A stretch of 64,000 bases of DNA from Pseudozyma flocculosa PF-1 (Eukaryota > Basidiomycota > Ustilaginomycetes > Ustilaginales > Ustilaginaceae), in the NCBI RefSeq assembly GCF_000417875.1, contig NW_006920882.1, positions 62,001 through 126,000 on the forward strand, in the 5' to 3' direction. The notes under the pieces are model-generated. The model made no database searches and was not told the origin of the DNA. It saw nothing but the letters and a program-made list of their open reading frames with translations. Shown here in pieces: positions 34,103-63,657 of this stretch; position 1 is the first letter of the stretch, and each line of letters opens with the position of its first letter. The translations under genes were made by a program, and so were the position numbers.

Positions 34103-34669
34103 GGCGGGCAAGCAGCGAGGTATGTGGTGGAGCAGGCAGAGCGCGGGAGAGTGTGGCGATGGCGGATCGAGGAGTGGGGTCTAGGAGCGAGGAGCTAGGA
34201 CGGGCGGTGGTGGTCGAGAAGATCCACGGGGCCCAGAAAAATGTTGGGGGCGGTGTGGCCAAAATTGCGGGCGAGGGCTGTCCCCCGGGTCCCGGCATCC
34301 GAGTGCATGGCTGCCAATTTTTTTTTGCGCGTTGCAAGCGCGACCCTGGCCGCATCTCTTTCTGGCGAGAAGAAAATTTGGTGGCCGAGGCGGCGGCTGG
34401 CGGCTGGCCCTCCCTCTCCTCCTCCCCCTCCATCATCGACCAACCACGACTGCGGCCACGGCAACCGCACACCATCGGACACTTCATACGACCGCGCGGA
34501 GGAAGCAGCAATCACCTTGCCTCTCGCAAATAGAAGCCAGCAGCCCGCCGTCCATCCAGCCTGCCCAACGGCCGGGCCTTTTTCGTTGCCGCTGCCTCTA
34601 CGCCCGCTCAGCATCTCGGATCCTCTCGGCGCCCCGTATAGACCGGCCCCTTTCAGGCTCGCAGTCACC
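34103..34669. promoter_or_regulatory. Shared divergent promoter region, RPA12 and MDN1
   Basis: 567 bp between the start codons of two ribosome-biogenesis genes. It is GC-rich but has isolated A/T tracts: a nine-T run at 34318-34326 and GAAGAAAATTTGG at about 34370-34382, which resembles the AAAATTT core of the yeast RRPE element. The element assignment is inference; the divergent arrangement is directly seen. Confidence 0.5.
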
Positions 34670-37600: not shown

Positions 37601-40600
37601 CTCGCGGGGCTCTGGCGCGAGTCGGCCAAGATGGCGGCGCAGCGCAAGAAGGCGGCCGCCGCCAACGGTGACGCCTCCGGCGCGGCATCGGCCCCGGTCC
37701 CTGCTGAGGCGACCACGGCGGCGGCAGCGGCGACGACGACGACTACCACCACCACCAAGTCGAGGAAGAAGCGGCGCACCGAGAACGGCTCGGCCGAAGG
37801 CTCGGCGTCTGGCATCGACGACGTCGAGGCCGACGCCAAGCTCGACGCCGAGTGGGTGCGCTTCGACCAGCTGGCGCGCGACTTTGGCATCCAGCACGGC
37901 TCCAAGAAGCGCAACCTGGTCTTTTCGTTTGTCGAGGGTCCGCTGATCCGCGCGCTGCGCCAGGGCGACTGGGTGCTGCTCGACGAGATCAACCTGGCCG
38001 CGGCCGAGACGCTCGACTGCCTCTCTGGCCTGCTCCAGTCGCCCAGCTCGAGCATCACGCTGACCGAGCGCGGCGACCTCGAGCCCATCCCGCGCCACCC
38101 AGACTTCCGCCTGTTTGCCTGCATGAACCCGGCCACCGACGTCGGCAAAAAGGAGCTGCCCTCGGGCCTGCGCTCGCGCTTCACCGAGCTCTACGTGCCC
38201 AGCCCGGACTCGGACCGCGACGCGCTCGTGGCCATCGTGGAAAAGTACATTGGCGAGCACGCCGTGGGCGACCGCGGCGTCGTCATGGACGTGGCCGAGT
38301 GCTACGCCGAGATCCGCCGCATGGCGCAGCGCCACGAGCTAGCCGACGGCGCCAACCAGCGCCCGCACTACTCGATCCGCACCCTCGCGCGCGCCCTCAC
38401 TTTCGCCACCGACATCGCGCCCTCGTTTGGCCTGCGCCGCGGGCTGTGGGAGGGCTTCGTCATGGCCTTCACCCTGCTGCTCGAGACCAAGAGCGCCCAG
38501 GCGGTGCGCGAGGTCATCGAGCGCAACGTGCTCGCCAAGGCCAAGAACGCGCGCGCCATCGCCACCTTCACGCCGCCCGCGCCTCCGGGCACCGACGAGG
38601 GCAAGTTTGTCCAGGTGGGGCCGTTTTGGCTCGAGACGGGCCCGCTGCCGCTTGACGCGGCCGGAGATTACGTCCTCACGGCGTCGGTCCAGGCCAAGCT
38701 GGTGGGCCTGTCGCGCGCCGCCCTGACCCGGCGCTTCCCCGTCCTCATCCAGGGCCCCACGTCGGCGGGCAAGACGAGCGCCGTCGAGTACCTGGCCCGC
38801 CGCACGGGGCACCGCTTCGTCCGTATCAACAACCACGAGCACACCGACATCCAGGAGTACCTCGGCTCGTACGCGTCGGACCCGGACACGGGCCGGCTGG
38901 CGTTCCACGAGGGGCTACTGGTCAAGGCGCTGCGGCGCGGCGACTGGATCGTGCTCGACGAGCTCAACCTGGCGCCCACCGACGTCCTCGAGGCGCTCAA
39001 CCGGCTCCTCGACGACAACCGCGAGCTCGTCATCCCCGAGACGGGCGAGGTGGTCCGCCCGCACCCGCACTTTATGCTCTTCGCCACCCAGAACCCGCCG
39101 GGCCTCTACGCGGGGCGAAAGGTGCTCAGCCGCGCGTTCCGCAACCGCTTCCTCGAGCTCCACTTTGACGACGTGCCCAAGGCCGAGCTCGAGACGATCC
39201 TCACCAACCGCTGCGCCATCGCGCCCTCGTACGCCGCGCGCATCGTCGGCGTGTTCGAGGAGCTGCAGAAGCGCCGCCAGGCGGGACGCGTCTTTGAGAC
39301 CAAGCAGGCCTTTGTCACGCTGCGCGACCTCTTCCGCTGGGGCATGCGCGAGGCCGTCGGGTACCAGCAGCTGGCCGAGAACGGCTACATGCTCATCGCC
39401 GAGCGCGCCCGCCGCAGCGACGACCGCGCCACGGTCAAGGAGGTCATCGAGAGCGTCATGCGCGTTAAGATCAACACGGCATCGATCTACGACCTTCACG
39501 GCGCCGGGCGCGAAAAGGTGGCCGCCCGCATCGGCCCGACCGTCACCGACTCGATGATGCGCGCGGTCGGCGAGTCGCGCATCGTGTGGACCGACGCCGT
39601 GCAGCGCCTCCTCTGCCTGGTGGCCACCGCGCTGCGCTACGACGAGCCCGTGCTCCTCGTCGGCGAGACGGGCGCGGGCAAGACGTCGGTCTGCGAGGTC
39701 CTCGCCCACGCCTTTGGCCGCAAGCTGCACAGCGTCAACTGCCACCAGAACACCGACACGGCCGACCTGCTCGGCGGGCAGCGCCCGCTCCGCAACCGCG
39801 CCGCGCTCCAGGCCGAGGCCAAGCTCGCCGCCCTCGATGTCCTCGAGCGGGTCGGGGTCGCCCACTCGCTCACTGCCCAGAGCCTGCCCGAGGAATTTGC
39901 CGCCGCCCTGTCGTCGGTGCTGTCCAAGTGGCCCTCGGCGACCAGCGAAGCTGCTGTCAGCGCCTCGGAAGCTGGAGTGACGGCCGACGAGAGCGCAGCG
40001 CTCAAGGCGCACACGGCCAAGGTGCTGCAGAAGGTCAACCAGTCGACGGCGCTGTTCGAGTGGCACGACGGGCCGCTGGTGCAGGCGATGCAGGCCGGGG
40101 ACCACCTGCTGCTCGACGAAATCTCGCTCGCCGACGACAGCGTCCTCGAGCGCCTCAACAGTGTCCTCGAGCCCAGCCGCACCCTGGTGCTGGCCGAGCG
40201 CAGCACCACGTCGTCGCCCAGCGCAGTCCGCGATGGCTCCGACATCTCGGCCGCCGAGATCCGCGGCGCCGCCGGCTTCCAGGTGCTCGCCACGATGAAC
40301 CCGGGCGGCGACTACGGCAAAAAGGAGCTCTCGCCGGCGCTGCGCAACCGCTTCACCGAGATTTGGGTGCCGCACATCGACGTGCGCGCCGACCTGGTGC
40401 GCATCGTCGAGGCCCAGTGGCGCGACGATGCGCTGCGTGCCTGGACCGAGCCGCTGCTCGACTTTGCCGACTGGTTCGTCCACCAGATTGGCGGCATCGA
40501 CCAGGCCAACATCGGCCTGCGAGACCTGCTCGGCTGGGCCGCCTTCATGAACCAGACGGCGGCCGGCGACGCGCCGGTGCTCGAGCCGGCGCTCGCGTTT

Positions 40601-43600
40601 GCCCACGGCGCCTCGCTCACCATCATCGACGGCCTCGGCGCGCTGCCGGCCACGGCGGCCATGTCGGCCCACGGCCTGCGCGAGCTGCGCGCAAAGTGCT
40701 TTGCCAAGGTGGCCGCCATGATTGCGCCCGTCGAGTTTGACGCCGCGTCGCCTGCCATGTTTGAGGTGAGGCAGACTGCCGACCGCTTCGGCGTCGGTCC
40801 CTTTGCCGTAGCGATGGGCTCTGTCGCTGCTGCCGCTGCTGTCAGCGCTGATGGCGACGGCAACGACGCGGCGGCCGGCTCGTTCAGCTTTGGCGCGGCC
40901 ACGTCGGCGTCGAACGCGATGCGCGTGCTGCGGGCGCTGTGCGTGCCCAACAAGGCGCTGCTGCTCGAGGGCAGCCCGGGTGCCGGCAAGACGAGCCTGA
41001 TCAGCGCGCTGGCCAAGGCGACGCGCAACCCGCTCACGCGCATCAACCTGTCCGACCAGACGGAGCTGGTCGACCTCTTTGGCGCCGACCTGCCCGTTGA
41101 AGGCGGCGGGCCGGGCGAGTTTGCGTGGCGCGACGCCGCCTTCCTCACGGCGATGCAGAAGGGCGAGTGGGTGCTGCTCGACGAGATGAACCTGGCCTCG
41201 CAGACGGTGCTCGAGGGCCTCAACTCATGCCTCGACCACCGCGGCACCGTCTTCCTGCCCGAGCTCGGCCGCAGCTTCACCAAGCATCCGAGCTTCCGCC
41301 TGTTTGCCGCGCAGAACCCGCACCATCAGGGCGGCGGACGCAAGGGCCTGCCAAAGTCGTTCCTCAACCGCTTCACCAAGGTGCACATCGAGGAGCTGAC
41401 GCCCGACGACATCCTCGAGATCTGCACCCACCTCTACCCGCGCTTCGACCCGGCCGACCTGCGCAAGATGATCGCCTTCAACTCGCGCCTCCACCACGAG
41501 ACGATGGTGCGCCACAGCTTCGGCCGCGTCGGCGCGCCGTGGGAGTTTAACCTGCGCGACCTCCTGCGCTGGCTGACGCTGCTCCACTCGAATCTCGGCC
41601 TCAATGTGCGCGGGGCGCCCATCGAGCACCTCGCCTCGCTCTACGTCCTCCGCTTCCGCACTGCCGCCGACCGCCGCGCCGCCCGCGGCCTCTACGCCGA
41701 CGTGTTCGGCATCCCGCTGCCGGACGACGTGCGGCCGTGGCCCAGCGTCACACCTCGACACGTCCAGTTCGGCCACGCGCTCCTCGAGCGCGGACCCCGG
41801 CGCCTCGACGCCACGGCCAACCTGGCGCTGCTGCAGCACCAGCTGCCGACGCTCGAAGCGCTCGCCGACTGCCTGCAGATGTGCTGGCTCGGCATCCTCA
41901 CGGGACCCAGCGGCGTCGGCAAGACGAGCGTCGTCCGCCTGCTGGCGCAGCTCGCCGGCGCGCGCCTCGAGGAGTTTTCGATGAGCTCCGGCACCGACAC
42001 CATGGACCTGCTCGGAACGTTTGAGCAGTACGACCCGCAGTCGCAGCTGCGCGACGCCCTGGTGCGCGTGCGCCTCGCCGTCGAGCGGCTCATTGAGCGG
42101 GGCGGCGCCGTCGCCTCGTCGGACGAGTTTGGCCGGCTGTCGGCCAGCGACCGCGCCGTGTCGGCTGAGCTTGACCTGCTGGTCGCCCACAAGGACCACG
42201 CCGTCGACCACGCCGGGCTGCTCGCCGCCATCGACACCCTCGCTTCGCATCCGCTGACGGTCGAGGATGACGACGCCAAGCACGCCATCGCCTCCGCGCG
42301 GCAGTGCATTGTCCAGAGCCGGCAGCTGCAGCTGCAGCAGCGGGCTGATTCCGCAAACGAGGGCGGCGGCAGCTCGGGCCGCTTCGAGTGGACCGACGGC
42401 CCGCTGCTGCGCGCCCTCAAGGAGGGCCACTGGCTGCTGCTCGACAACGCCAACCTCTGCTCGGCCTCGGTCCTGGACCGGCTCAACTCGCTCTTCGAGA
42501 TCGACGGCCAGCTCGTAATCAGCGAGCGCGGCGTCGTCGACGGCGAGGTGCCCGTCGTCCGGCCGCACCCCAACTTCCGCGTCTTTATGGCGCTCGACGC
42601 GCGGCACGGCGAGCTCTCCCGCGCCATGCGCAACCGCGGCATCGAGATCTGCATGGTCCCTCCCGCTGCGGCCGGCTCGGCTGGACCTGCCTCTGGCTCC
42701 AAGATCGCGACGCTTGAGGGTGATGCCGACCGGCTGCGGCTGTCGAGCCTCGCTCGTGCCGATGTGGTGCCAGTCGCTGCAGCCTCCGCGCGCGACGTCA
42801 GGCACGACGCTGCGCTCATGCCGGCGACGATCGCATCGCAGGCCGCTCGGCGAGGCATGCTCGTTGCCAGCGCTGCTACACAGGCTCAGAGCGAGGACGA
42901 AGCCAAGCGCACCGCGCACTGGGCCGCGTCATCGCTCGTCCTCCGCAACTCGGCGCTCGCCGCCGGCGTCGCTGCCTCGGCCTTCCTCTGCAGCGGCAGC
43001 GACCAGGACCTGTCGGCGGCGGCGGCGTCGCGCTCGTACCTGCTCCGCTTCTCGAACCCAGAGGCCGTGCCGCTCCTCACCCACCTGCTGGGCCGGTACG
43101 CCCGAGACGCCGACACGCAGCAGCAGTCGCTGCTCGCGCTGCAGGTCTGGTCCAAGGCCGACAACGTGTCGAAGCTCGTCACGCAGCGCATCGAGGCGCT
43201 CGCCGGCGGCGGTCTCGCCGTGCCGCGTCCCTTTGTCGAGCGCCAGCCGTTCGATGTGCGCTACAACGACAACGTCTCGGCGCTCCTCGAGCAGGACCAG
43301 CAGCAGCAGCAGCTCGACGCATCGTCGCACGACGGCGGCAAGCTGCAGCTGTACGCCGCAGCGCTGCTGCAGCAGATCGCGCTGCGATCGCTCTCGGAGG
43401 CGGCGCAGAAGAAGGACAAGAAGTTGCTGAGCGTCATGGAACAGTCGGCCCTGGCCGCCCTCAACAGCGACGGCGCCAACGCCGGTGCATCCGGCTCTGA
43501 GCAGAGCGAGGAATCGGCCATCCAGCAGGTGTTCCCGCTCTCGGCCTCGATTGTGCGAGCGGTGCAGGAGTGGTCGGGCTCCGACGCAGCCCTCGACAGC

Positions 43601-46600
43601 CAGGTGGCGGCCCGCGTCCAGACCCTGCTGCACACGTGCGGCTTCCTCGAGAAGCTGTGCTCGAGCTCCGAGCTCGACTACTCCGCCATCCAGGTGCTGG
43701 TCCAGGTCATGGCCGAGACGATGGCCAAGCTCGATGCGGCCGGCCTGCCGCTCCAGGCGGCGCTCGGCAGCGCCCTCGATCAGCTTGGCGGCAAAATCAA
43801 CCTGACCTCGGGCTTCGCCATGCAGACCATCTGGACCCTCTGCCTGGCCAAGGCGGCCGACAGCCGCGGCGCCGAGCTGTCGAGGCAGATTGCCGATGTG
43901 CTGGCCCGCTCGCCGCCGCGCAGCCTGCCCCGCGACGCCGCCGTCAATGCGCTCGATATCGCCGCCACCCTGACCCTCAGCGGCGCGGCGTGGTCGCAGA
44001 AGCAGTCGGCGGAGCTGCTCGACCTCGGACGCAAGACGCTTGCCTCGCTGCAGAACCTCGAGTCCAAGGCCCTCCAGGAGCAGCAGCAAGACGGAGAGAC
44101 TGCCGGCTGGAGCACGGCAGAGGAGGATACGCGAGAAGCAGTGGCCGCCTCGGCCATGGACGTCGCCGTCCAGAGCGTGCTACGCTCGGCGTCGGCGTCG
44201 GTCTCTCCGGCGGGCAGCGTGGGCAGCGTCGACCTCGCACGGCTACGCTGCTTCGTCGAGCTGCTCAAGCAGGGCTCTGGCCTCCCTCTCTCGGCCGCCG
44301 TCCCCGTGCGCGCGGCCATCTGGTCGCTCGAGGCATCGGGCGGCAACGTTCTGGCGAGCAGCGGCGCCGCTGACAAGCTCGATGCGCCCGACGTCGAGTG
44401 GATCCGCCGCCTTTGGGCCCAGATCGACCCGGCAAGCGCTGGCGAACGCCAAGGAGGAGGGCGCCGCCGCCGTGACCACGCCGGGCCAGCCGAGCTCTTC
44501 CGCCCCATGCTGCTGCGCGCTATCCTCGACTCCCGCTCCGACCGCGTCAGCCTCGAGCGCCGGATCGAGCACGATGCGTCGGCGCGCAGGCTGGCGCTCT
44601 CGGCGTGCGTCGCCACGCCTGCCATGATGCCGTCCAGGCTTGAGCAGGTCCGAAGCCTGCTGAATGGCTTTGCCAACTTGGTGAGTGCGGCGTCGAAGCT
44701 GGCAGACGAGGCGCGATTGCTGGAGCCCACGCATGCTGACCCGATCTCGACACCGCTCTCTCTCTCTCTCTCCCCCTGTCTCGATCGCAGATGTCCGAGG
44801 CTCTGAGGCGCTCAATCGCCCGCGTCGATGGAGTCCCGATCGGCAAGGACCGCACCGGCGGCGGCCGGAGTGCCGAAGTCGGCCTGCAGCGCCTCGCCAC
44901 CGAGTTTGCCACGCTCGGCGAGCTCGAGGCCGTCTCGGACGAGTCGAGGGCGATCGCCTCCGAGTGGTCGGCCAGCCTGGCTCAGGTGGCTGCGCTGTCG
45001 ACGGGCAAGCGCGGGCCCGAGGCGATGCTCGGAGCGGGCCAGGCGTGGGTGGTGCTGGCCATGTCGGTGCTGCGCCTCTACCTGCCCAACTTTGCGCTCG
45101 ACCCGGTCGTGACGCAGCAGACGCGCGGCGCCTTTAGCGCCTTCTGCCGCGACGAGGTGCGGGCGCAGCTCGCCGTCGAGACGGCCGCCGAGGCCGTCGT
45201 CACGGGTCGGCCGGGCAACGCCATCACGCGGCAGCTGGGCGCGGAGCTGGTCGACATCACTGGCCGCATGGCCAAGGAGTCGACCAAGACGCTGCCGCGC
45301 GGCTCGGACCTCAAGCTCCTCACGCAGCTCTACCGCGAGATGCACGCCTTTGTGCAGCAGGTGCTGGCCACGTCGAAGCTGGCCGACCTGATGAACGCCA
45401 TGCAGGCGGCCGAGTTCGACCAGCAGACCGAGGATCGCGAGGTCAGCCTGCAGGCGAGCATCATGGGCTTTGCGCACCGCCTGCGCCAGACGTTTGCGCC
45501 GCTCCACGACCTCATTGCGCCGTTCCTGCTGGTGCTGTCCCAGGTGCAGCTCGGCTTCCGCACCATGGCCCAGGCGGCCCGGCTGGCCAGCCGCACCGCC
45601 GAGGTCAACCGCCAGTCCAAGGTGCTCGAGGCGCTCGTCACCTTCCCCACGGCGGCCAGCATCGCTGCCTACGGCCGCCTCGAGCTGCCCGTCAAGCTCA
45701 AGACGACGTCCAAGTCGGGCGTCCTGACGGCGCCGCTGCTCCTCGCCTCGGTCTCGTCGGTGGCGCTTGATGCCGAGCGCCTGGGCGCGCAGAGCGTGCG
45801 CCAGATCGGCACTCTCCGCCGCATCAGCCGCACCTACGACCAGCTCTACCAGCTCTGGACGCTCGACCGCGAGCGCGAGCGCCAGGCCGAAGAGGCCAAC
45901 GCCAGCCTGTACAAGTCGAAGCGCTTCGACCTCGAGATGGCTGCCGACGCCGAGGCCGAGGAGCGCGAGTTCCGCATGCTCTTCCCGGAGTTCAATGACG
46001 TCCTCGACGAGCCGTCGGGCGGTCAGCAGCAGCAGCAGCAGCAGCAGCAGGACGCAGCGGCAGACTCGACGGCGGTCAACTCGCTCCTCAAGCCGCCGCA
46101 CTTTGTCCAGCTCTACCGCGCCCACATGGCGCTGTTCGGCGACGGCGAGGTGGCCAGGCAGCAGGCTGCCGCGTCGCGCGAGGTCTTTTACGCCAGCCGC
46201 GCCGAGCTGGTGCGGAGGATCGTCAACTCGCACTACGCCCAGCTCAGCGAGAAGATCGACCAGATCGGCGCCGCTTATCAGGTGGCCGCTGCGACCTCGA
46301 GCGTCGGCGCCCCGTTGGCCTCGCCGGACGACGGCACCGGCGGCGGGGTGGGCAGGTTCAACTTCTACCTCGACCCCCGGCCGGACGAAGCGGGCAAGGT
46401 GATTTCGATCGTCGACGGTCTGCGCCGCCGCCTGTCGGAGCTGATTGCCGAGTGGCCGGACCAGATGGTGCTGCAGCACATCCGCGACCGCTGCGATGCG
46501 CTGCTGCGCCTCGACTCGGCGAGCCCGGTGGCCAAGGTGCTGAGCGCGCTCGAGCAGCTGCTGATGCACACCGAGGACTGGGAGGGCTTTGCCAGCTCGC

Positions 46601-49600
46601 AGACGACGCTGCAGCCGCACCGCGAGCGCGTCTCGGCCCAGATTGTCGAGTGGCGCCGCCTCGAGCTGTCGTGCTGGGCGCGCATCCTCGACAACCAGGC
46701 GACCGACTACGTCGAGACGGGCCTGGCCGAGTGGTGGTTCCGCCTCTTTGAGGTCCTCGTTGGCGGCACGCGCTCCGCCGCGGCCGAGGGCGACGAGGCG
46801 CGCCAGGCCCACGTCCGCAAGCTCATCGACTCGCTCGACCAGTTTGTGCGTTCCGGCTCCATCGGCCAGTACGAGGCGCGGCTGCGGCTGCTCGATTCGT
46901 TTTCGCGCTTCCTTGACCTCCTCGTCGAGCTGGCGCCCGTCGACGAGAGCCGCGGCCTGCGCGACGTCGGCGTGGTGCTGCAGAACGTTACGGCCTTCTT
47001 TTGGCAGTTCCAGCCCAAGGTGGCCGCGACGCTCCGGCAGCAGCGCGACGTCCTCGAGCGCGAGATCCGCAACTACATCAAGCTTGCCAGTTGGAAGGAC
47101 GTCAACGTCCACGCGCTCAAGGCGTCGGCGCAAAAGACGCACCGGCAGCTCCACAAGTGCATCCGCTCCTTCCGCGACATCCTCCGCCAGCCCGCCGACC
47201 CGCTGCTCGCCGCCCACCTCGACGGCCTGTCGAGAAAGGACCTTCCCGCCGTCATCGCCATCAAGGTCGAGCACGCCCCCGCCAAGATCGACCAGCGGCT
47301 GTGGGCCGCCGTCTGCCGGGCGGGCGACGACGCCGTCGCTGCTCCGGCAGGACACCAGGCGCAGCTGCCGCAGCACCTCGCCAACCTGGCGCAGACGTAC
47401 ACGATGCTGCGCCAGATGGGCGGCAAGCACCTCGTGCCGCAGCTGACCGACGCCAGCGTGGCCGACGGCCTTTCTTCGCTGGCCGAGGAAATCATCGAGC
47501 GGCAGCAGTCGCTGGCCAAGCTGACGCCGGCGTTCCACAAGGAGGAGACCGAAAAGGCGATCAAGAACCTCAACCTGCGCAAGCGCAAGGCGTGGACCGA
47601 GCTGCTGCGCGAGCTGCGCCGCATCGGCCTCAACGGCTTCGTCAACTCGGACGTGCCCAAGCGCAACCAGGACAGCGCCTTTGTCTATACGCAGGAGCCG
47701 CTGCGCGCCGTCTGCCCCGCCTCGCTCGGCGGCGAGGTGTTTGAGAGCGTCGAGCAGTTCCACTTCCGCCTCCTCGCCGGCCTGCCCAAGGTGCGCGACT
47801 CGCTCGGCAACCACAGCGCCGACCTGTCGACGGCCGAGCTGCAGCGCTGCGTCAACTACGTCGAGCACTGCGTCAGCCTCGTCTTTGGCGAGCGCAGGCG
47901 CATGTCGAAGCTGCTGCGCGACTTTGCATGCCTCGAGAAGGTGGCGCACCGCATCGAGGTCGTCCACACCGTCGCCGGTGGCGATGCAGAGGGTGACGCC
48001 GCAGCGCCGATGGCCGTGACGAGGTCCAAGGCCAAGGACACGTTCGCCGACGCGGCCGACTTTGTGGCGCGCCTGGCATCGAGCCTGGAAGAGGTGCTGC
48101 AGCTGGCGCCCAAGCACATCGCCCTCTCGCCGTTCGGTCCGATGGGCACCGAGGCCGTGCTGACCAGCCTCGGCCGACTCAGCGCGACGGCGACCCAGCT
48201 TGCCGCGCAGATGCATCGCACCCGCGCCGACGCCGTCGTCATCGACTCGTTCTGCTTCCTCGCTGCGGGCGAGGAGCAGGTGCTGTCCAAGGCCGCCGAG
48301 CTCGCCCGCGAGGTCGTCGACTGCCTCGTCCGTGGCGAGGAGACGGCGCCGGCGCTGTCGGCCCTCGTCCGACCGACGCGCACCTGGACCGAGGCGATGA
48401 GCTACACCATCTCTGCCTGCCTCGCGTCCATCGTCGCCGACGGAGAAGAGGACGAGGACGAGGAGGAGCAGATTGCGCCCTTCCGCGACCAGAGCAACCG
48501 GGTCATCTCGTCGATCCTCCTCGTCGCCCAGGATCTGCGCAAGAAGGCCGATCTTGCCGCTGCCAAGCCGTCTGCTGCTGCCGATGGCGAGGCCAAGAAG
48601 GCCGACGACAATGACGCCGACGACGAGGACAAGGACCTCGAGGACAAGGCGGTGCTGTCGGAGCTCGAGCGCCTGGCCCACGACCACCGCACGCTGCGGT
48701 GCGAGTCGGTGCTGATCGAGGTGGAAAAGGCGCTGTCGCTGGCCGACTCGCTTCCGCACACGGCGTCGGCGGCAGCGGCGGCGCACCACCACCTGGCGCG
48801 GCTATCGCCGTTCGTGCACGAGTATGCATCGCTGCTTCGCGCCCACCTGGTCTCTTCGGCCAACTGGTCGCGCTCGCTGCTCAAAATGAGCCATGTGCTG
48901 TGCAACCTCGTGTCGGCGCTGGCCGCCAAGGGCTTCTGCAAGCCGCCCGAGGAGCAGCAGCAGCAGGACGGCGACGACGGCGATGGCGGAGAGCAGCTCG
49001 AGGGCGGCACGGGCCTCGGCGACGGTTCGGGCGCCAAGGACGTCACCGACCAGATGGACGACGACGAGCCCATGGAGGAGCTCGCCAAGGACCCCAACCA
49101 GGAGCAGGGCGACGATGGCGAAAGGGACGACAAGCCGGAGCGCGAGAAGAATGCGCGCGAGGCCGAGGACGACTTCGGCGGCGATATGGAGGAGATCGAG
49201 CCGAGCGAGGGCGAGGGCGAGGGCGACGACGACGAGCACAAGGACGACGAGCAGGACGACGAGGAGCCCGACGAGGCCGTGGGCGACGTCGATCCGCTCG
49301 ACCCCAACGCCGTCGACGAGAAGATGTGGGGCAACGAGGACGACGACGAGGACAAGGAGGACAACAAGGACGCCAGGGACAAGACTGACAAGCAGGCCCA
49401 GGGCGGCGACGACGCCGACGACGACGACAACGGCCAGGACGACTTGGCGCCCAAGGACGACGAGGGCGAGCGGAAGCAGTCGGACTCGAAGCAGAAGAAG
49501 GAAAAGGCAGGCGAGAAGAGCGACAACGTCGACAAAGAGCAGGGTCAGCAGCAGGGCGATGACGACAACGACGACGGCGGCGCCGAGGACGAAGGCGACG

Positions 49601-52062
49601 AGGCCGAAAAGCACGAGGGCGACGACGAGGACAAGGGCGACGAGGAGGGCGAAGAGGAGGACCCGGACGCAGACCAGCAGCCCGAGGGTCTCGGCCGCCG
49701 CCTCGACGAGCAGATGCAGGAAGGCGAGAACCTCGACATCGACGACGAACTCAACATGGACGACGGCAACGAGCGGGACGAGGCCGAAGACGACGACAGC
49801 GGCGATGACGAGGACGGCCTCAGCGACCTGGCCGGCGACGACCTGCCGCCCAACGAGGAGAAGCAGAAGAAGGACGAGCGCCAGCCAGACGGACTCGACG
49901 ACCTGGTCGACGACGAGCCGGGCAAGGAGGAGATCGAAAAGGCCGACGGCGACGACGAGGAGGACGGCGAGGGTGCCGAGCCCGACGAGGCGACCGACGA
50001 AAAGGTGGCCAAGGACGAGGGCGAGGAGGGCGCCGCCATGGACGAGGATGAGGGTGAGGGCCAAGATGGCGAGGATCAGGGCATCGACGACCAGCAGGCA
50101 GCAGCGCAGGACGAAAAGGCACAGCGGCCCAACGACGCCCAGGACCCGGACCAGCCGGTCAATCTCAACGACGACGGCGCCGCCTACGACCAGGGCATGG
50201 ACGCCGGCGAGGACGCGAGCGCCGAGCAGCAGCAGTCATCGCGCGGCCAGCAGGGGCGACGGGCCGAGGCGGCGCAGCAGAGCACCAACGACGCCGACGA
50301 CGGCATGATGGACGAGGACGACGAGGCGGCGCTGCCCACCGATCAGGACCCCTCGGCGGGCGGCGGATCGTCGCGCGCCCAGCGGCCGCAGCCCGAGGCG
50401 GTCGAGGAGACGTCGCAGCAGCGGCCGGACCTTGACGCCGCCAACCCGATGCGCTCGCTCGGCGATGCGCTGGAAGAGTTCCGACGCCGCTTCGAAGACA
50501 TCCAGGAGGCCAACGACCAGGACCAGGCGGCCGACGACGAGCACCAGGGCGACGAGGCCAAGCCCGAGGGCGAGGGCATGCCCGAGCAGGGCGACGTCGA
50601 GCACGTCACCAACGACGACAACGCCGAGGGCCAGGCGCTGGGCGCGGCCGAGGACGAGGACCAGGTGCAGAAGCTGGGCGAGCTGGCCATCGAGGACGAA
50701 AACGACCAGCAGGGCGCCAAGCCGCGCGCCGAAGAGGCCAAGCCGGACCCGTCGCAGGCCGACGCGCCTGAACGCGCGCCGCTCGAGCTGCCGGATCTGG
50801 GCGGGCAGGAGCGCGACGACCAGGGCGAGGGCGCACAGCAAAAGGCGCTGATGCCGAGCGACATCAAGCCGTCGTCGTCCTCGCTCACGGCCGAGCAGGA
50901 GGCGCTCGCCAACGGCCGCGACGAGGGCGAGGTCAACCCGAACGCCCAGGACAACGACGACGAGGCCATGTCCGAGGGCGCCTCTTCGGACTCGGACAAC
51001 GACCCGCTGCCGGACGTGGACCGCGCCGAGGCCGACGCTGCGCTGCTCGAGTCGCTCGACGAGTTTCGCGGCCTGGATGCCGAGGAGCGGCTGTCGCGGG
51101 CGGGCGACCTGTGGCGCTCGTACAATGCGCTGACGTCGGACCTGTCGTTTGCGCTGTGCGAGTCGCTGCGGCTGATCTTGGCGCCGACGCTGGCGACGCG
51201 GCTCAACGGCGACTTCCGGACGGGCAAGCGGCTCAACATGCGCAAGATTGTTCCCTTTATCGCGTCGGACTTTGCCAAGGACAAGATCTGGCTGCGGCGG
51301 ACCAAGCCGTCGAAGCGCGAGTACCAGGTGCTGCTGGCCATCGACGACAGCCGGTCGATGGCCGAGTCCAAGTCGGCCCACCTGGCGTACCAGACGCTGT
51401 CGCTCGTGTCGGGCGCCCTCAACCGGCTCGAGGTGGGCGAGGTGGGCATCGTCAAGTTTGGCGAGACGGTGTCGACGCTGCACCCGTTCGGCACGGCGTT
51501 TAGCGATGCCGAGGGCGGCAAAGTGCTCGACTCGCTGCGGTTCGAGCAGAGGGGCACCGACGTCTACCGGATGCTCGAGTCGAGCCTCGAGCTGCTGGCC
51601 TCTTCGCGCGACGAGCGCGGCGGCGGCGGTAGTGGCGAGTCCAAGGAGCTGTGGCAGCTGCAGATTGTCATTTCCGACGGCATCTGCCAGGACCACGAGC
51701 GGCTGCGCTCGATCCTGCGCCGGGCCAATGAGCAGCGCGTGGTGCTCGTCTTTGTCGTTGTCGACTCGCTCTCGCCTCCCGCTCCTCCTCCTGCTGCTGC
51801 TGCTGCTCCCGCGGCAGCATCAACGTCGGCAACCACGCAGCAGCAACCACCACAACAGCAGCAGCGCGCGTCGATCCTGTCAATGTCGTCGGTGAGCTAC
51901 GAGATGGACGCGCGCGGACGGCCGCAGCTCAAGATGCAGCGCTACCTGGACACGTTCCCGTTCGAGTACTATGTCGTGGTGCGCGACGTCGAGGCGCTGC
52001 CCGAGGTGCTGGCCGCCACGCTGCGCCAGTGGGCCGAAAAGATCCGCGAGATGGAGACGTGA
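34670..52062 (+). CDS. MDN1: Midasin, dynein-like AAA ATPase of 60S ribosome assembly
   Basis: Midasin (Rea1) pulls assembly factors such as Rsa4 and Ytm1 off pre-60S particles in the nucleolus and nucleoplasm. The start ATG at 34670 has context GTCACCATGG. Exons are 34670-35100, 35191-44680 and 44791-52062; the 90-nt first intron (GTGTGT, branch-like CTGAC, CAG) is in frame, so the protein is 5730 residues if it is spliced or 5760 if not. Six AAA modules carry Walker A motifs starting near unspliced residues 453 (GPPSSGKT), 891 (GETGTGKT), 1362 (GPTSAGKT), 1665 (GETGAGKT), 2101 (GSPGAGKT) and 2412 (GPSGVGKT). AAA6 has LLDNANL, with Asn replacing the Walker B Glu, as is usual in this family. 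A long linker follows, then an Asp/Glu-rich region (about 48920-51060), and the C-terminal MIDAS domain with the DDSRS metal site at residues 5522-5526. Yeast Rea1 has 4910 residues, human midasin 5596. Confidence 0.97.
48952..51060 (+). other. Acidic low-complexity region of midasin
   Basis: About 700 codons dominated by GAC and GAG with runs such as DDDDN, EEEDPDAD and DDDEHKDDEQDD. It is the Asp/Glu-rich spacer that joins the midasin linker to the MIDAS domain. The strongly biased codons create long open frames on the other strand. Confidence 0.9.
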
Positions 52063-52587: not shown

Positions 52588-53910
52588 CCCTCGCCTGCGT
52601 GAGTTTTCGAGGATCGGCGTTTGAACGCCGAAACGCCAGAGCCAGCGCCAGGGCCAGCCGCAGCGCATGTCGATCCGCCCTACTCTGGTGCTGGTGCCAA
52701 GAAGGCACGCAACGCAAGGGCGACAAACGGAGCCAGATAGACTGCACCGACCGATCAGCATCAGCTCCTCTTTTAGCGGTGGCATCGGACCGTACCCTAC
52801 ATCGGGCGTGCCGCAATCATCTGGAGTCAGAGCGCCCTGGCCTGGAATCAACGTTCAAGATACCTAGGGCACGAGAGCAGACGGACGGGTATGCAGGCAT
52901 GCGGCAGCTCCAGCGAGGTTTAGAGGGCGTGCGTTGCGCCGCGCTGGTGCCGCGTCCTGTATGTGTGATCTGCGCATTGTCTTGCCTTGGCCGTCGTAGG
53001 GCGGGCGGGTGCGGGTGCGGGTGCGGGGGCGAGGACAAAGGCAGGCGGGCAGGCAGGCTGGTGGGCGGACGGACCGCGCCAAAACCTCGTTGCCGATGCC
53101 GGCCAAGCCAGAAGCAAGCAGCACGCAGGCTGGAGGGTGGCGGGCCCGCCCCGAACGCGCGCGCTCCGACCTTTTTGGCCGCCCGCCCCCCTGCAGGCTA
53201 GGCTGGGCTGGTCTGCCAGGCTGGCTGGTGGACACGCAGGCCGCACGCCTCTGCCGGCCTTGGCTGGCAAGGCCCCGCCCGCCCTCTCTTCTGGCAGGAG
53301 CGAGGCGAGCCAAGCCTGCCAGGCGGTTTGTTGGTCGCCTCGGCCTGCGTGCTGCTTTGCTGAATTTGCCCCGCCTGGCTCCTCGCCTGCCGCTGGTCTG
53401 CTGCCCCCTGCTGGTCTGGCGCGCCTTGCCTGTGGCTGCCTCGCCCCCTCCCCCCCGACCTGCCTCCAACCTCGACCTCGACCACGACTCGGACCTCGAG
53501 CCGCCTCCGTTCTGCCCTCACGACCATCACCACCACCGCCCACCACCGCGCCGACTCCCGGAACCTCAAGGCCCCCCTTCCTTTCCGCATCGTCTTCAAA
53601 GGAATCATCACCACCACCACATCACCACCGCGCCACCAGGATCCATCCACCCACGCTCTTTGCCCCCGTGTACCCGTCTCACGACTCGACGCATCGTCTG
53701 TAGCCATCCTTTCCATCTAGACTTGCCCTCGCCATCGCGCCCCCGGGCTAGATCCTTGATTGCACGCATCCGCACCTCTTGCACGCCCAGATCCGTAAGT
53801 CGCCTTCCTTGCACGCACTCGGCTTCCTCCCGCCCAGAGCCTCGACTCATCGCCGCCGCCGCCACACTCGCACCTCGACCTTTTCCGCCACCCTCTCAGC
53901 ACTCGCCACC
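52063..53910. other. Intergenic region upstream of the chitin deacetylase gene
   Basis: No gene supported. It holds an ACGC tetranucleotide repeat (52543-52587) and GGCA-type runs near 53040-53060. The last 500 bases before the chitin deacetylase are C/T-rich with CCACCACC and CTCGACC motifs, fitting a promoter and leader. Confidence 0.55.
52543..52587. repeat. ACGC tetranucleotide repeat, eleven units
   Basis: Eleven perfect ACGC units (45 bp), the longest perfect microsatellite I see in the window. Confidence 0.9.
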
Positions 53911-55254
53911 ATGGTCAAGTTCACCTCGGCCGCCCTCTGCGCTGCCCTCGCAGTCGCAAGCGCATCCGCTCACATGAGCCCCGTCCGCCGACAGGCCGCC
54001 ACCAGCACCTTTACCGGCACCCTCGCCCCCTCGGTCTCGTCCATCGTCGCCACTATCAAGTCGGGCGAGGGCAACCCCACGGCCACCCAGCCCCTCTACT
54101 CGACCGCCAGCCCCGGCGCAAAGAACCCGCAGATCACCAACGCGCCCGCCCTCCCCGACGCAAAGCAGATCACCATTGCCAACTTCCCCCCGCTCGACGC
54201 CCTGCCCCCCACCGACTCGCCCCAGGTCCAGGCATGGATCAAGGAAATCGACTGGTCCAAGGTCCCCAGTGTCCCCTCGACCGTCGACGCCGCCTCGTGC
54301 TCGGGCAACCCCAACAACCTCAAGGCCGCCGGCGCAGACGGCAACTGCTGGTGGACCTGCGGCGGATGCACCCGCGACACCGACATCACCACCTGCCCCA
54401 CCAAGAACACCTGGGGCCTCTCGTACGACGACGGCCCCTCGCCCTACACGCCCCAGCTGCTCGAGTACCTCAACGAGCACCAGCTCAAGTCGACCTTCTT
54501 TGTCGTCGGATCCCGCGTCCTCTCGCGCCCCGAGATGCTCCAGCTCGAGTACTCGGCCGGTCACCAGATCTCGGTCCACACCTGGTCCCACCCCTCGCTC
54601 ACCATGCTCACCAACGAGCAGATTGTCGCCGAGCTCGGCTGGACCCGCGAGGTCATCCGCCAGACGATCGGCGTCTCGCCCAACACGATGCGCCCGCCTT
54701 ACGGAGACATCGACGACCGCGTCCGCGCCATCTCCAACCAGATGGGCCTCACCCCCATCATCTGGACCTCGGCCCCCGGCGGCGGCAACTACGACACCAA
54801 CGACTGGAAGATCGGCGCCGGCACCGTCTCGGCCGCCGAGGTCGTCTCGACGTTTGAGGGCATCCTCAAGAACGCCCCCAACCTCGACACCGGCTACATT
54901 GTCCTCGCCCACGACCTCTACCAGCAGAGCGTGGAGCTGGCCACCGAGGTCGTCCTTCCGTTTGCCCAGAGCATGAACCCCAAGCAGAACCTCATGCCCA
55001 TCATTCAGTGCCTCAACAAGCCCGCCGGCGACGCCTACGTCGAGACCAACCGCAACATCACGGGCTCCCAGGCCACGGCCACCGCCTCGGGCTCGGCCGC
55101 CGTCAAGAGCGGCTCGTCGGGCTCCAACGGTGCCGCCGGCGCCCAGTCGACGTCCAAGTCGGCCAGCGGCTCGTCTAGCGGTGCCGCTGCCTCGCTCCAG
55201 GCGCCCCTCGTCCTGCTCGGATGCACCCTGCTCGGCGCTGCCCTCCTGTTTTGA
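53911..55254 (+). CDS. GPI-anchored chitin deacetylase (CE4)
   Basis: A single exon of 447 residues converting cell-wall chitin to chitosan at the outer surface. The ATG at 53911 has context CGCCACCATGG and is chosen because it starts a clear signal peptide (MVKFTSAALCAALAVASASA); a dibasic RR at about residues 27-28 may be a propeptide site. The CE4 polysaccharide deacetylase domain shows the motifs in order: SYDDGPS with Asp173 (base) and Asp174 (metal), HTWSH with metal ligands His223 and His227, RPPYGD, IIWTS, and His334 in LAHDL. A Cys-rich stretch (NCWWTCGGC) precedes the domain. After it comes a Ser/Gly/Ala-rich linker and a hydrophobic C-terminal tail (APLVLLGCTLLGAALLF), the signature of a GPI anchor signal. 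Active-site residues are all present. Confidence 0.95.
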   Translation: MVKFTSAALCAALAVASASAHMSPVRRQAATSTFTGTLAPSVSSIVATIKSGEGNPTATQPLYSTASPGAKNPQITNAPALPDAKQITIANFPPLDALPPTDSPQVQAWIKEIDWSKVPSVPSTVDAASCSGNPNNLKAAGADGNCWWTCGGCTRDTDITTCPTKNTWGLSYDDGPSPYTPQLLEYLNEHQLKSTFFVVGSRVLSRPEMLQLEYSAGHQISVHTWSHPSLTMLTNEQIVAELGWTREVIRQTIGVSPNTMRPPYGDIDDRVRAISNQMGLTPIIWTSAPGGGNYDTNDWKIGAGTVSAAEVVSTFEGILKNAPNLDTGYIVLAHDLYQQSVELATEVVLPFAQSMNPKQNLMPIIQCLNKPAGDAYVETNRNITGSQATATASGSAAVKSGSSGSNGAAGAQSTSKSASGSSSGAAASLQAPLVLLGCTLLGAALLF

Positions 55255-59028: not shown

Positions 59029-59034
59029 TATAAA
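59029..59034 (+). promoter_or_regulatory. TATA box of the repeat precursor gene
   Basis: TATAAA 255 nt before the start codon. It is followed by a 5' leader (59041-59288) made almost only of C and T with a few A, a pattern common in strongly expressed fungal genes. Confidence 0.6.
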
Positions 59035-59288: not shown

Positions 59289-61265
59289 ATGAAGTTTACC
59301 ACTCTTCAGACCGCCGCCGTCGCTGCTGTCGCCGCCGCAGCCGTTGGCCAGGCTCGCCCTATCAACAACTCGGTCAACCAGGTCATCGCCGACGAGGGCG
59401 AGCACCACTTCGACTACGACGGCCACGGCCACGGCCACGGTTTCCACGAGGGCGAACACTACGAGCACGAGCACAAGAGCATCCCGCATGCGGCGGGCAT
59501 CGACGCCGAGGGCAGTTTCAACAGCGCAGCGAGCGGAAACGATGGAGGAGCCAACGTTGCCGTGGCAGACAACATCCTCAACGGTGTCCTCTCTCGTCGA
59601 GGCGGACGTGGTCCCATCGACGCAGAGGGGTCCTTCAACTCGGCCGGCAGCAACAACGATGGCGGTCTGAACGTACCAGTGGCAAACAATATTCTCAACG
59701 GCGTTCTTTCACGTCGAGGAGGATTCGGCACCGACGCCGAGGGCAGCTTTAACAGCGCAGCCAGTGGGAACGACGGTGGAGCCAACATTGCAGTGCTCGA
59801 CAACCTGCTCAACGGCGTTCTCTCACGCCGAGGAGGACGAGGCATCGACGCCGAGGGCAGCTTTAACAGCGCATCTAGTGGGAACGACGGCGGAGCCAAC
59901 GTGGCCGCTCTCGACAACATCCTCAACGGCGTCCTGTCTCGCCGTGGCTTGGGCAGCGGTAGCTTCGAGGGCTCGGGCAACTCGGCAGCCGATGGTAACG
60001 ATGGCGGAGCCAACGTTGCCGCTCTCGACAACATCCTCAACGGCGTCCTGTCTCGCCGTGGCTTGGGCAGTGGTAGCTTCGAGGGATCTGGCAACTCGGC
60101 CGCATCGGGCAATGATGGCGGCCTCAACGTCGCCGCCCTCGACAACATTCTCAACGGCGTCCTGTCTCGCCGCGGTGGTGGCAGCAGCTTCGAGGGATCG
60201 AGCAACTCGGCAGCCGATGGTAACGATGGCGGAGCCAACGTCGCCGCTCTCGACAACATTCTCAACGGCGTTTTGAGCCGTCGAGGCGGTGGTATCGACG
60301 CCGAGGGGTCTTACAACTCGGCCGCATCGGGCAATGATGGCGGAGCCAACGTCGCTGCCCTCGACAATATTCTCGACGGCGTTCTGAGCCGTCGAGGCGG
60401 AGGTATCGACGCCGAGGGGTCTTACAACTCGGCCGGTAGCAACAACGATGGCGGCTTGAACGTACCCGTGGCAAACAATATTCTCAACGGCGTGCTTTCG
60501 CGTCGAGGTGCCGGTGGCGAGGCCAACGGATACGGCGGCTCGGCGTGGCAGTGGCAGCAGAACCACCCGGTCGTCTCGGGTGGCGGCAATTCGGTGACGG
60601 CCGGCGGGCCGCAGGGCGCCGACGACAGCGGCCGGGGCGGCGACATCAGCGACAACGAGCGCCGCGGTGGTGGCGCGTACGGCGAGTCGAACGGCTATGG
60701 CGGCTCGTCGTGGCAGGGACAGGCCAACCACCCGGTCGTGAGCGGATGGGGCAATTCGGTCACCGCCGGTGGTCCCCAAGAGGCCGACAACAGCGGAAGC
60801 GGCGGCAGGATCGGCGACGACGAGGAGGGCGGACACGGTGGTCGTCCCTTCCGTCGTCGCGGCGGCTACGGCGGCGAGGCCATCGGCCAGGGCATCGAGC
60901 AGTTCGCCTCGGTCGATGCTGTCGGCGGCAAGTCGTTCCAGTATGGCATCAACGGTGACGCCATCGCCGACACGTCGGCCACGGCCGGCATCGCCAACCA
61001 GTACGCCTCCAACGACGCCGACCAGGGCCAGGCCGGCTACGGCTACCACAAGAGGTCCAACGCCAACCAGGCTGCCTCGGCCGATGCCTGGGGAGGCGAC
61101 AGCTTCGACCTCCAGTACAACGTCGCCAACCCCATCAGCGGCGACGGCAAGAGCGTCACCATCGGTGGACCCCAGATCTCCAACAACGCGGCTCAGGGTG
61201 GCGCCATCGGACAGGAGGTCGGCGACGAGGAGGAGGCCCAGTACCAGCACGGTGGTTACCACTAA
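59289..61265 (+). CDS. Secreted Kex2-processed tandem-repeat precursor, repellent-like
   Basis: A single exon of 658 residues. A signal peptide (MKFTTLQTAAVAAVAAAAVGQA) is followed by a His/Glu-rich spacer (about 38-64). Nine repeat units then end in LSRR, with the RR at residues 103, 142, 180, 218, 256, 294, 331, 368 and 405 (spacing 37-39). A typical unit contains EGSFNSAASGNDGGANVAAL followed by DNILNGVLSRRG. Further dibasic sites at 458 (RR), 522 (RRR) and 588 (KR) cut the C-terminal part into larger Gly/Asn/Gln-rich peptides with a second repeat motif, SVTAGGPQ. Dibasic sites are substrates of Kex2 in the late Golgi, so about 13 secreted peptides are predicted. The architecture and size recall Rep1 of Ustilago maydis (652 residues), whose peptides form amyloid on aerial hyphae; a RiPP-type precursor is the alternative, but no tailoring enzyme is nearby. 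Family assignment is by architecture only. Confidence 0.85.
   Translation: MKFTTLQTAAVAAVAAAAVGQARPINNSVNQVIADEGEHHFDYDGHGHGHGFHEGEHYEHEHKSIPHAAGIDAEGSFNSAASGNDGGANVAVADNILNGVLSRRGGRGPIDAEGSFNSAGSNNDGGLNVPVANNILNGVLSRRGGFGTDAEGSFNSAASGNDGGANIAVLDNLLNGVLSRRGGRGIDAEGSFNSASSGNDGGANVAALDNILNGVLSRRGLGSGSFEGSGNSAADGNDGGANVAALDNILNGVLSRRGLGSGSFEGSGNSAASGNDGGLNVAALDNILNGVLSRRGGGSSFEGSSNSAADGNDGGANVAALDNILNGVLSRRGGGIDAEGSYNSAASGNDGGANVAALDNILDGVLSRRGGGIDAEGSYNSAGSNNDGGLNVPVANNILNGVLSRRGAGGEANGYGGSAWQWQQNHPVVSGGGNSVTAGGPQGADDSGRGGDISDNERRGGGAYGESNGYGGSSWQGQANHPVVSGWGNSVTAGGPQEADNSGSGGRIGDDEEGGHGGRPFRRRGGYGGEAIGQGIEQFASVDAVGGKSFQYGINGDAIADTSATAGIANQYASNDADQGQAGYGYHKRSNANQAASADAWGGDSFDLQYNVANPISGDGKSVTIGGPQISNNAAQGGAIGQEVGDEEEAQYQHGGYH
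59493..60512 (+). repeat. Nine tandem coding repeats of 111-117 bp
   Basis: Near-identical units at DNA level inside the repeat precursor gene, each encoding a peptide ending in LSRRG. Neighbouring units in the middle share long identical stretches, which suggests recent duplication or gene conversion. The second and ninth units carry the same variant (SAGSNNDGGLNVPVANN). Confidence 0.9.
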
Positions 61266-63657
61266 AACTTGGGTGGCTCCGCCCTCCTGGCTTTCTGCAT
61301 GGACCTTCTCCCTCGTCCCCCCGTCTCCGACCCGATCCGGCACTGTTCTTCTGTTGTTGGCCGTACTCAGCCGGCCGATCCCACTCCCTTCGCACCTTCT
61401 CCTTCTCACCAAGACGCTCGTTGACGTCGACTCACGACCTTAGACCCATGGAGCTTCCAATCTTATTTTCTATGAAGGATCATGACGAGGATCGGGGATG
61501 TCTGGTCTTGCCTGTGCGGTGGCTCCGGTGGAGATGTCGCGGGAACATCGCTGAGTGCGGGGGTCGTAGCCAAGCGCCTGATCGACGATGGGATGATGAT
61601 CGGATAAGGACTTTGGAGGGGTCAGAAAGGAGGAAGAAGGAGGTTCGAGTAGAGGGAGGATGGTGATGGATGGTGGCGATGTTGTTCGTCTGAGGTCGGG
61701 TTCTTATACCGTTAAGTCAGAAACGCTGGCTCTCCAAGCTGTCATCATATTGGGGCTAGGCAGCAGCTCTTCCTCAGCTCGACGTCCCCAGCCCCTCTGC
61801 CGGGCTGTACTCGCTTTGAGTCCTCAGCATTTGCAACAGGGGGCGGATCATGACACGGGACGCCCCATCGGCAGACAGGAGCAGCGGACTTCCGTGGTCA
61901 GCCCTTCGTGCGGATTCCTGTTGTCATCGAATAGGTCAAAGAGCAACCAAAGTGTGCATCTTCCCACGCCACCGCTCGAGCCCCGCCTTGACGTGCTCGA
62001 GCCCATGGACTCGATTGATGAGTGGGCCGACAGGGGCGATCCTTGACGGAATGTCTGGAACATCTGGAACGTCGTGGCGCTCCTTCTGCGGCTAGACCAC
62101 CTCGTTGGCTGGCAAATTACCCCGGCTTTGCCTCGTAAAGCTGCCACCCTGCACCGATCAAGTGATGGCGGGATTGTAGGAAAACGCAGGTCGAAAAGCT
62201 CAACCTCTGCAGCAGGGGCCCGGATTACAGCAGCAGCAGCTGCCTTTGGGGTTCACCCCAGCAGGCCGCCCGGAGAGCGGTTCCTTCCTCGCTCGATTTG
62301 TGTCGAGACGCACCACCTGGCGATGCGTGTGGGATGACAAGGCGAAAGTCAGACTGGCAAGTCCGACGGGCAAGCCTCGCCGCGTCACCATCCCGAGACC
62401 AAGGCATCGGCATCGAGCACTATTAGTCCGAGGTCGAGACGTCCCGTTCGGGCCTGCTGTGTCCAGGCAGCCAAAGAGCGAGGAACATGCGCAGGTCTGC
62501 CCCTATACTGTGAGAAGAGGCTCGAGCGCGCGTGGATGCGGCCGGGGCCAACGATGCGGCAGGAGCAACGATCGATACGGCCCGCAACGATGCTCTCTTC
62601 GATCCCAGTGCGCAGGTCAAGACAAAGTAAACCACCACGATCGAGGTCGGCTCAATGAGAGCCAGCGAGCATCGAATCGCGGTTCTCGTTGTCCAGGCGA
62701 AGCTCCTCTTCGCCTGGACAGAAAACGTCAATTCAAGCAGCTGATGAACAAGGCTGAACCGCTGACATCGACACGTGTGACTCGACTTGGGCAGGCCTGG
62801 AGCCGTCCAGCGCCAAACATCCTGTGAAGTTCGCATAGACGCCGTGCACCTGGACACCATCAACGCGGTCACCACTTGGAGGATAGCGTCGGCGAGAGAT
62901 GATCTAGAGGCGACACTCGTAGGCAGCGACAGACCCCGGAAAAGAGCGCCGCAACCTTAGCACGTCGATGAGCGCCGAGAGGAGCGCCTTCCCAGCCCGA
63001 GCATGTTTCGATCTGCGACGCTCGTCACTCAGGGCGCAACTCTGTCGGCGGAGAGGCGGTGCCGCAAGATAACAGCAGACCGGCTGCCGGTGCATGGGCG
63101 GGCGATAAAGAGCTCTGCTGTGACTAGATACGGATGGACAGGCTCGTCAGCCTGCCGATGACCGGCCGTGACGTCGTGGGCGGGCTCCTTTCCGAAAGAT
63201 GTCACGGCTGAGTTCTCTTTGATGAAGGGAGCTCGTCCAGCAAGGCAATTGCCTGCTCTCCTATTGCTCTGTGTCCACACGATGCTCGCAAAGGTGCTTC
63301 CAAGCCTGCTTGTGCGCAAGCGTCCAAGGAGTGGGGCGAGCGTAGGCCGAGGAGCGAGAGGCCGCTGTCAGCTTGTACCGCGGCCGCTAGGGGGTTGCGA
63401 GCTCTGCTTATGTCAGCAGCCGAATATTCCGAGAGCCGAGGTTTGGCGCGAAGGTGGCCCCAATTTTTTTGCTCGGCTGGCGCGGGTGGGCCCCAGGTAG
63501 GCAGGAGGGTGCTCTCGTTCGCCTGCCCCACCACTGCTTGCCACCACCCCTTAGCTTCTTGTCCTCACCATCATCATCGTAGCAGCACCTCGGGCGTCTT
63601 CATCCCATCGTCTCGCGTTTCACCCGACCGCCCTAGTTTTGCGCCTGCAGCCTCGAA
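61266..63657. other. Intergenic region upstream of ROK1, no gene seen
   Basis: About 2.4 kb with no gene I can support. Open frames of up to 193 codons occur on both strands around 62.2-62.9 kb but have no motif. A strong hairpin lies at 62690-62720. The last 100 bases before 63658 are the ROK1 leader. Confidence 0.5.
62690..62720. repeat. Perfect 13-bp inverted repeat with 5-nt loop
   Basis: The arms TGTCCAGGCGAAG and CTTCGCCTGGACA pair perfectly around the loop CTCCT. It lies in non-coding DNA between two plus-strand genes. Role unknown. Confidence 0.8.

Follow-up and report, generated by a model that had tools for sequence, protein, structure and literature searches.

We analyzed a 64,000-nucleotide stretch of the genome of the smut yeast Pseudozyma flocculosa PF-1 (contig NW_006920882.1, positions 62,001 to 126,000; hereafter the window, with positions counted from its first nucleotide), and within it a forward-strand open reading frame (ORF) that needs no intron. 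The original prediction had read this ORF as a Kex2-processed precursor with two peptide families, and it is present as described: its 658-residue product runs from a signal-like start through a His-rich stretch and nine short units (A units) to four larger pieces of 53, 65, 65 and 69 residues (Table 1). Our data establish the reading frame and its dibasic sites, show that the A units are under constraint and that the tail is homologous to a smut protein family, and place a kexin gene in the same genome. By analogy with Rep1 of Ustilago maydis, the protein is probably a repellent-type precursor whose peptides would coat the cell surface.

Each of the nine A units closes with RR (at residues 104, 143, 181, 219, 257, 295, 332, 369 and 406), and the tail carries further dibasic sites at residues 458-459 (RR), 522-524 (RRR) and 588-589 (KR). 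The protein contains 13 [KR]R dipeptides (RRR counted twice), an excess beyond chance: 2000 shuffles of residues 23-658 averaged 1.55 and never gave more than 7. Of the 34 basic residues in that range (4 K and 30 R in all), 25 lie inside dibasic sites. The nine LSRR-ended units that had been predicted are in place, but not the nine released short peptides: eight pieces of 37-39 residues, including the RR, have dibasic sites at both ends, and no dibasic site precedes unit 1, which would therefore stay on a 104-residue N-terminal piece unless another protease cuts.

Tandem Repeats Finder (TRF) returned seven rows for the A units, with periods of 111-114 or about double. The 31-residue A cores are 71-97% identical to one another (mean identity 0.835 over 36 pairs), and over the same pairs the mean proportion of synonymous differences (pS) is 0.576 versus a mean proportion of nonsynonymous differences (pN) of 0.170, a pattern indicative of constraint at the peptide level. 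Our method scores serine AGY-TCN codon switches as nonsynonymous, so this contrast is understated if anything. The A pieces are rich in Gly, Asn and Ser, and by charge count are net acidic (3-5 D+E versus 0-1 K+R). Comparison of profiles by HHalign detected no relation of A to the three tail unit types described below (probability 1.3% for B, 0.0% for C and 0.4% for the terminal unit), in agreement with the predicted presence of two different families.

The tail matches a second protein of the same genome. Residues 403-645 align with frames on contig C3 (best E = 4.9e-18) that make up the 774-residue PFL1_01514 (P0002), and a database search with PFL1_01514 gave 14 matches, itself and 13 relatives (P0003-P0015), the weakest at E = 4.7e-42 (7997 candidates scored). 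The named relatives come from Sporisorium graminicola, Ustilago hordei, Thecaphora frezii, two further Ustilago and, as a partial sequence, Sporisorium scitamineum. Hidden Markov models (HMMs) made from these 14 proteins, with the last 52 residues of the 13 relatives serving for the terminal unit, scored the window tail at 33.5-65.2 bits, whereas the best of 400 shuffles reached 6.8 bits (B), 9.8 bits (C) and 6.6 bits (terminal). The order of units in the window protein (B, B, C, terminal B) is also the order in the smut relatives, though PFL1_01514 has more B and C units. By HHalign, B and the terminal unit are related (98.9%) and a relation between B and C is doubtful (41.6%). On these alignments, we assign the precursor tail to a smut protein family typified by PFL1_01514. 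The predicted [NK]SVTxGGPQ motif indeed occurs three times, at residues 434-442, 489-497 and 621-629; of the four predicted large pieces, all are present, but the third lacks the motif and is of type C.

Table 1. Features of the precursor gene, its surroundings and a hydrophobin gene elsewhere in the genome. Positions refer to the window unless a contig is given.
Feature	Position	Strand	Basis
Precursor ORF, 658 residues plus stop	59289..61265	+	Sequence and translation
Signal-peptide-like start, residues 1-22	59289..59354	+	By-eye reading of translation
His/acid-rich stretch, residues 36-63 (9 His of 28), within N-terminal piece	59394..59477	+	Composition
A unit 1 core, residues 74-104, without preceding dibasic site	59508..59600	+	A HMM, 68.5 bits (unit part of model)
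A units 2-9, residues 105-406, eight pieces of 37-39 residues, all LSRR-ended	59601..60506	+	Site list, TRF, A HMM
B unit 1, residues 407-459, RR end	60507..60665	+	B HMM built without window, 63.0 bits
B unit 2, residues 460-524, RRR end	60666..60860	+	B HMM built without window, 65.2 bits
C unit, residues 525-589, KR end, GGPQ motif absent	60861..61055	+	C HMM built without window, 33.5 bits
Terminal B-type unit, residues 590-658	61056..61262	+	Terminal HMM, 54.7 bits; B HMM, 44.3 bits
Candidate TATA-like hexamer (TATAAA), 260 bases 5' of ATG, then C/T-rich leader	59029..59034	+	Sequence position, composition
ATG7 frame, upstream	30775-32379		Pfam
Midasin frame, upstream	34199-44803		Pfam
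Frame after midasin, no Pfam match	44740-52059		Pfam scan
Polysaccharide deacetylase frame, upstream	53752-55251	+	PF01522, E = 3.1e-37
Hydrophobin gene (L019)	contig C4:303500-307500	-	PF01185

We detected A units in one other protein. The best database match of the window protein is PFL1_00445 (P0001), encoded on contig C1 of the same genome, and searches of this genome and of the collected relatives found A units beyond the precursor solely there. Like the window protein, PFL1_00445 carries A-type units at dibasic sites: six in all, four scoring 59.8-66.9 bits (these are part of the model) and two Cys-bearing ones, kept out of the model, scoring 30.3 and 30.8 bits. Unlike the window protein, it scores at most 0 bits with the B, C and terminal-unit profiles, and its long flanks are unrelated. 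PFL1_01514 and P0003-P0015, in turn, lack A units, and the A profile reached at most 4.0 bits in P0002-P0016, under the best shuffle (5.3 bits). Within the sequences searched, the window gene alone appears to join A and B units. What is new here is the membership of the tail in a smut-wide family and the sharing of the A cassette with a second precursor of this genome, to which the window protein is otherwise unrelated. PFL1_00445 (L003:2722-5313, + strand) also ends in a C-terminal run of dibasic-bounded pieces of FxPVW/FxPL type, possibly a further peptide family.

Other short units accompany the tail in other smuts. After splitting at dibasic sites, P0008 shows five TGDILDLNA...TGPQ pieces ahead of its B units, and two or three related units are found in each of P0003, P0004, P0006, P0009, P0010 and P0013. 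A pattern for TGD...TGNQ-type units gave 19 matches in 7 proteins, a count that misses two of the five units visible in P0008 and similar ones in P0005 (S. graminicola EX895_001558, a protein distinct from the REP1, REP4 and HUM3 entries for that species in a table of PMC7409079). P0014 has five pieces of 23-24 residues behind its B units, and no short-unit cassette is visible by eye in P0002, P0007 or P0011 after the same splitting. HHalign detected no relation between A and the TGD...TGNQ units (probability 0.5%), a result with which a very diverged relation would still be compatible. These data suggest a smut tail with changeable short-peptide cassettes; cassettes gained and lost in parallel, or inherited from a common ancestor and since strongly diverged, could also explain them.

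We identified two further frames with tail-like stretches. One (P0016; L024:1524-2543, - strand; contig C3:1221023-1222042) is a 340-residue secreted-type frame that lies some 9 kb from PFL1_01514. It has B-like stretches at 17.2, 20.8 and 7.4 bits, the last near the best shuffle (6.8 bits), and two or three LVGPLAG... pieces with KR ends. The other (L025, contig C13:691735-692649, - strand) is a 305-residue stop-to-stop frame with a signal-like start, one short Gly/Asn-rich stretch resembling B or C, and a tail rich in Pro, Lys and acidic residues.

The genome encodes a kexin. Found through PF00082 and then compared with PDB structures, the gene (L023, contig C5:213228-216860) matches Kexin 2id4 over its visible part (E = 7e-93); the locus runs into N, and its second half reads N in the assembly. 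The predicted dibasic layout and the comparison with Rep1 and with Kex2-processed repeat proteins (KEPs) are also supported. If the precursor enters the secretory pathway, kexin would cut behind RR, RRR and KR, and a Kex1-type carboxypeptidase would trim the basic ends. This would yield eight A peptides (35-37 residues), each polar in its Gly/Asn/Ser half and more hydrophobic at its NVAALDNILNGVLS end; a His-rich N-terminal piece containing A unit 1; and, from the tail, two B peptides, a C peptide and a terminal B-type peptide. An uncut, repeat-rich secreted wall protein with unused dibasic sites is improbable. Cleavage in vitro was rapid for about two thirds of predicted substrates (PMC2515848), which leaves such a protein some room; against it stand the placement of 25 of the 34 basic residues in dibasic sites at unit ends and the dibasic sites kept at unit ends in PFL1_00445, PFL1_01514 and other relatives.

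Rep1 of U. maydis (UMAG_03924), which we compared through its published descriptions, has nearly the same length as the window protein (652 versus 658 residues; PMC4617103, PMC2515848). PMC2515848 describes ten conserved repeats that carry Kex2 sites and, at the end, a fragment that does not resemble them; according to PMC4617103, Kex2 cuts the protein into ten small peptides and one of 228 residues. The repeat count differs by source (twelve in PMC4617103, ten in PMC2515848). The window protein likewise has about ten Kex2-separated repeats of similar size, here eight A pieces and a 53-residue B piece, followed by a longer, unlike end of 199 residues. Rep1-11 is reported as a single 228-residue peptide, whereas the window tail has further RR, RRR and KR sites. 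As in KEPs in general, similar repeats (the nine A units, at RR) are separated by Kex2-type sites; unrelated core families on one chain set the window protein apart from KEPs in general and are described for Rep1. Since the layouts match, two families in one precursor correspond to the known Rep1 plan, and a repellent-type precursor is the best reading of the window protein. Hum3 of U. maydis is described as an 828-residue protein with seventeen amphipathic repeats of 31-36 residues, fourteen of them separated by putative Kex2 motifs (PMC4617103); its repeats are followed by a hydrophobin domain. In the window protein, a Pfam scan up to E = 1 matched nothing, and we rejected a Hum3-type repeat hydrophobin because the hydrophobin domain is absent.

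Rep1 peptides are described as forming surface-active, amyloid-like fibrils with roles in attachment and aerial growth, and Rep1 is apparently dispensable for virulence (PMC4617103); the double mutant is named hum3/rsp1 there and rep1/hum3 in PMC7329392. By analogy, the peptides of the window protein would most likely form a structural and surface-active coat over the cell or hypha, where they may co-assemble. We count in favor of a repellent-type precursor the dibasic excess, the higher pS than pN, the order and scores of the tail units, the kexin, and a single hydrophobin match (PF01185) in the genome, which is a separate, small stand-alone gene of class I type with an apparent intron.

Several results weigh against this reading. 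The kexin P-domain (PF01483) had no match in the genome, though the kexin locus runs into N. For the A ends, the helical hydrophobic moment did not exceed that of shuffles (p = 0.27-0.37, nine units), which gives no support to an amphipathic helix there; segregation of polar and hydrophobic residues in A is marginal (p = 0.037-0.096, eight non-independent units). AlphaFold gave a poor model of the window protein, with a mean predicted local distance difference test (pLDDT) of 37.8 and a predicted template modeling score (pTM) of 0.24. Finally, protein searches with the window protein and with PFL1_01514 gave no match named Rep1. Each of the window-protein searches scored about 8000 candidates with shared words and gave PFL1_00445 alone, with the window protein itself not listed; they missed a true relative, PFL1_01514, so the absence of Rep1 there is no evidence.

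According to PMC7912694, P. flocculosa, a relative of U. maydis, has lost pathogenicity, serves in biocontrol and is said to use secreted factors. That background, together with the pheromones, candidalysin and other bioactive peptides among fungal KEPs (PMC9769878, PMC6339444), would suit A peptides that serve not as a coat but as signals or agents acting on other organisms, for example as antimicrobials or effectors. We consider this rather unlikely for peptides that are long (35-37 residues), rich in Gly, Asn and Ser and net acidic, and whose precursor also carries a tail with homologues throughout a conserved smut family. If the window protein is a repellent-type precursor, a non-pathogenic biocontrol smut relative retains such a coat, and peptide roles in attachment and aerial growth would be separable from plant disease.

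If the pattern is real, the conserved tail with its differing cassettes would allow such precursors to be found and compared where searches for repeats alone overlook them. We tentatively raise the possibility, which we hold to be doubtful, of a modular smut precursor in which a conserved Gly-rich tail combines with unrelated short cassettes that are gained, lost or shared, giving, from a single transcript, a constant fiber and a changeable decorating part. The B/C tail would perhaps form a beta-solenoid fiber like bacterial FapC or CsgA, and the window gene would be a case of a cassette common to another precursor in its own genome. The pattern makes a testable claim, namely that the tail builds the fiber and the cassette determines the surface property.

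A Pfam scan of 12 neighboring frames revealed a polysaccharide deacetylase, a wall-modifying enzyme that fits a surface role, if weakly for a single neighbor. The same scan found no tailoring enzymes for ribosomally synthesized and post-translationally modified peptides (RiPPs), and a genome search for UstYa found nothing, controls included, and is uninformative. A RiPP precursor with chemically tailored cores gained no support and is highly improbable, even though dikaritin RiPPs also have the KEP layout. In the Creative Commons-licensed literature, we found no publication on the precursor gene and no occurrence of PFL1_00445 or PFL1_01514.

TATA-like hexamers lie 293 bases 5' of PFL1_01514 and 398 bases 5' of PFL1_00445, as well as upstream of the window gene; none was found upstream of P0016. 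The His/acid-rich stretch of the N-terminal piece possibly confers sensitivity to metal or pH. Reverse-strand frames of up to 529 residues overlap the precursor gene, those at 59462-60310 and 59826-61439 (stop to stop) mirroring the repeats, and we take these frames to be by-products of the repeats.
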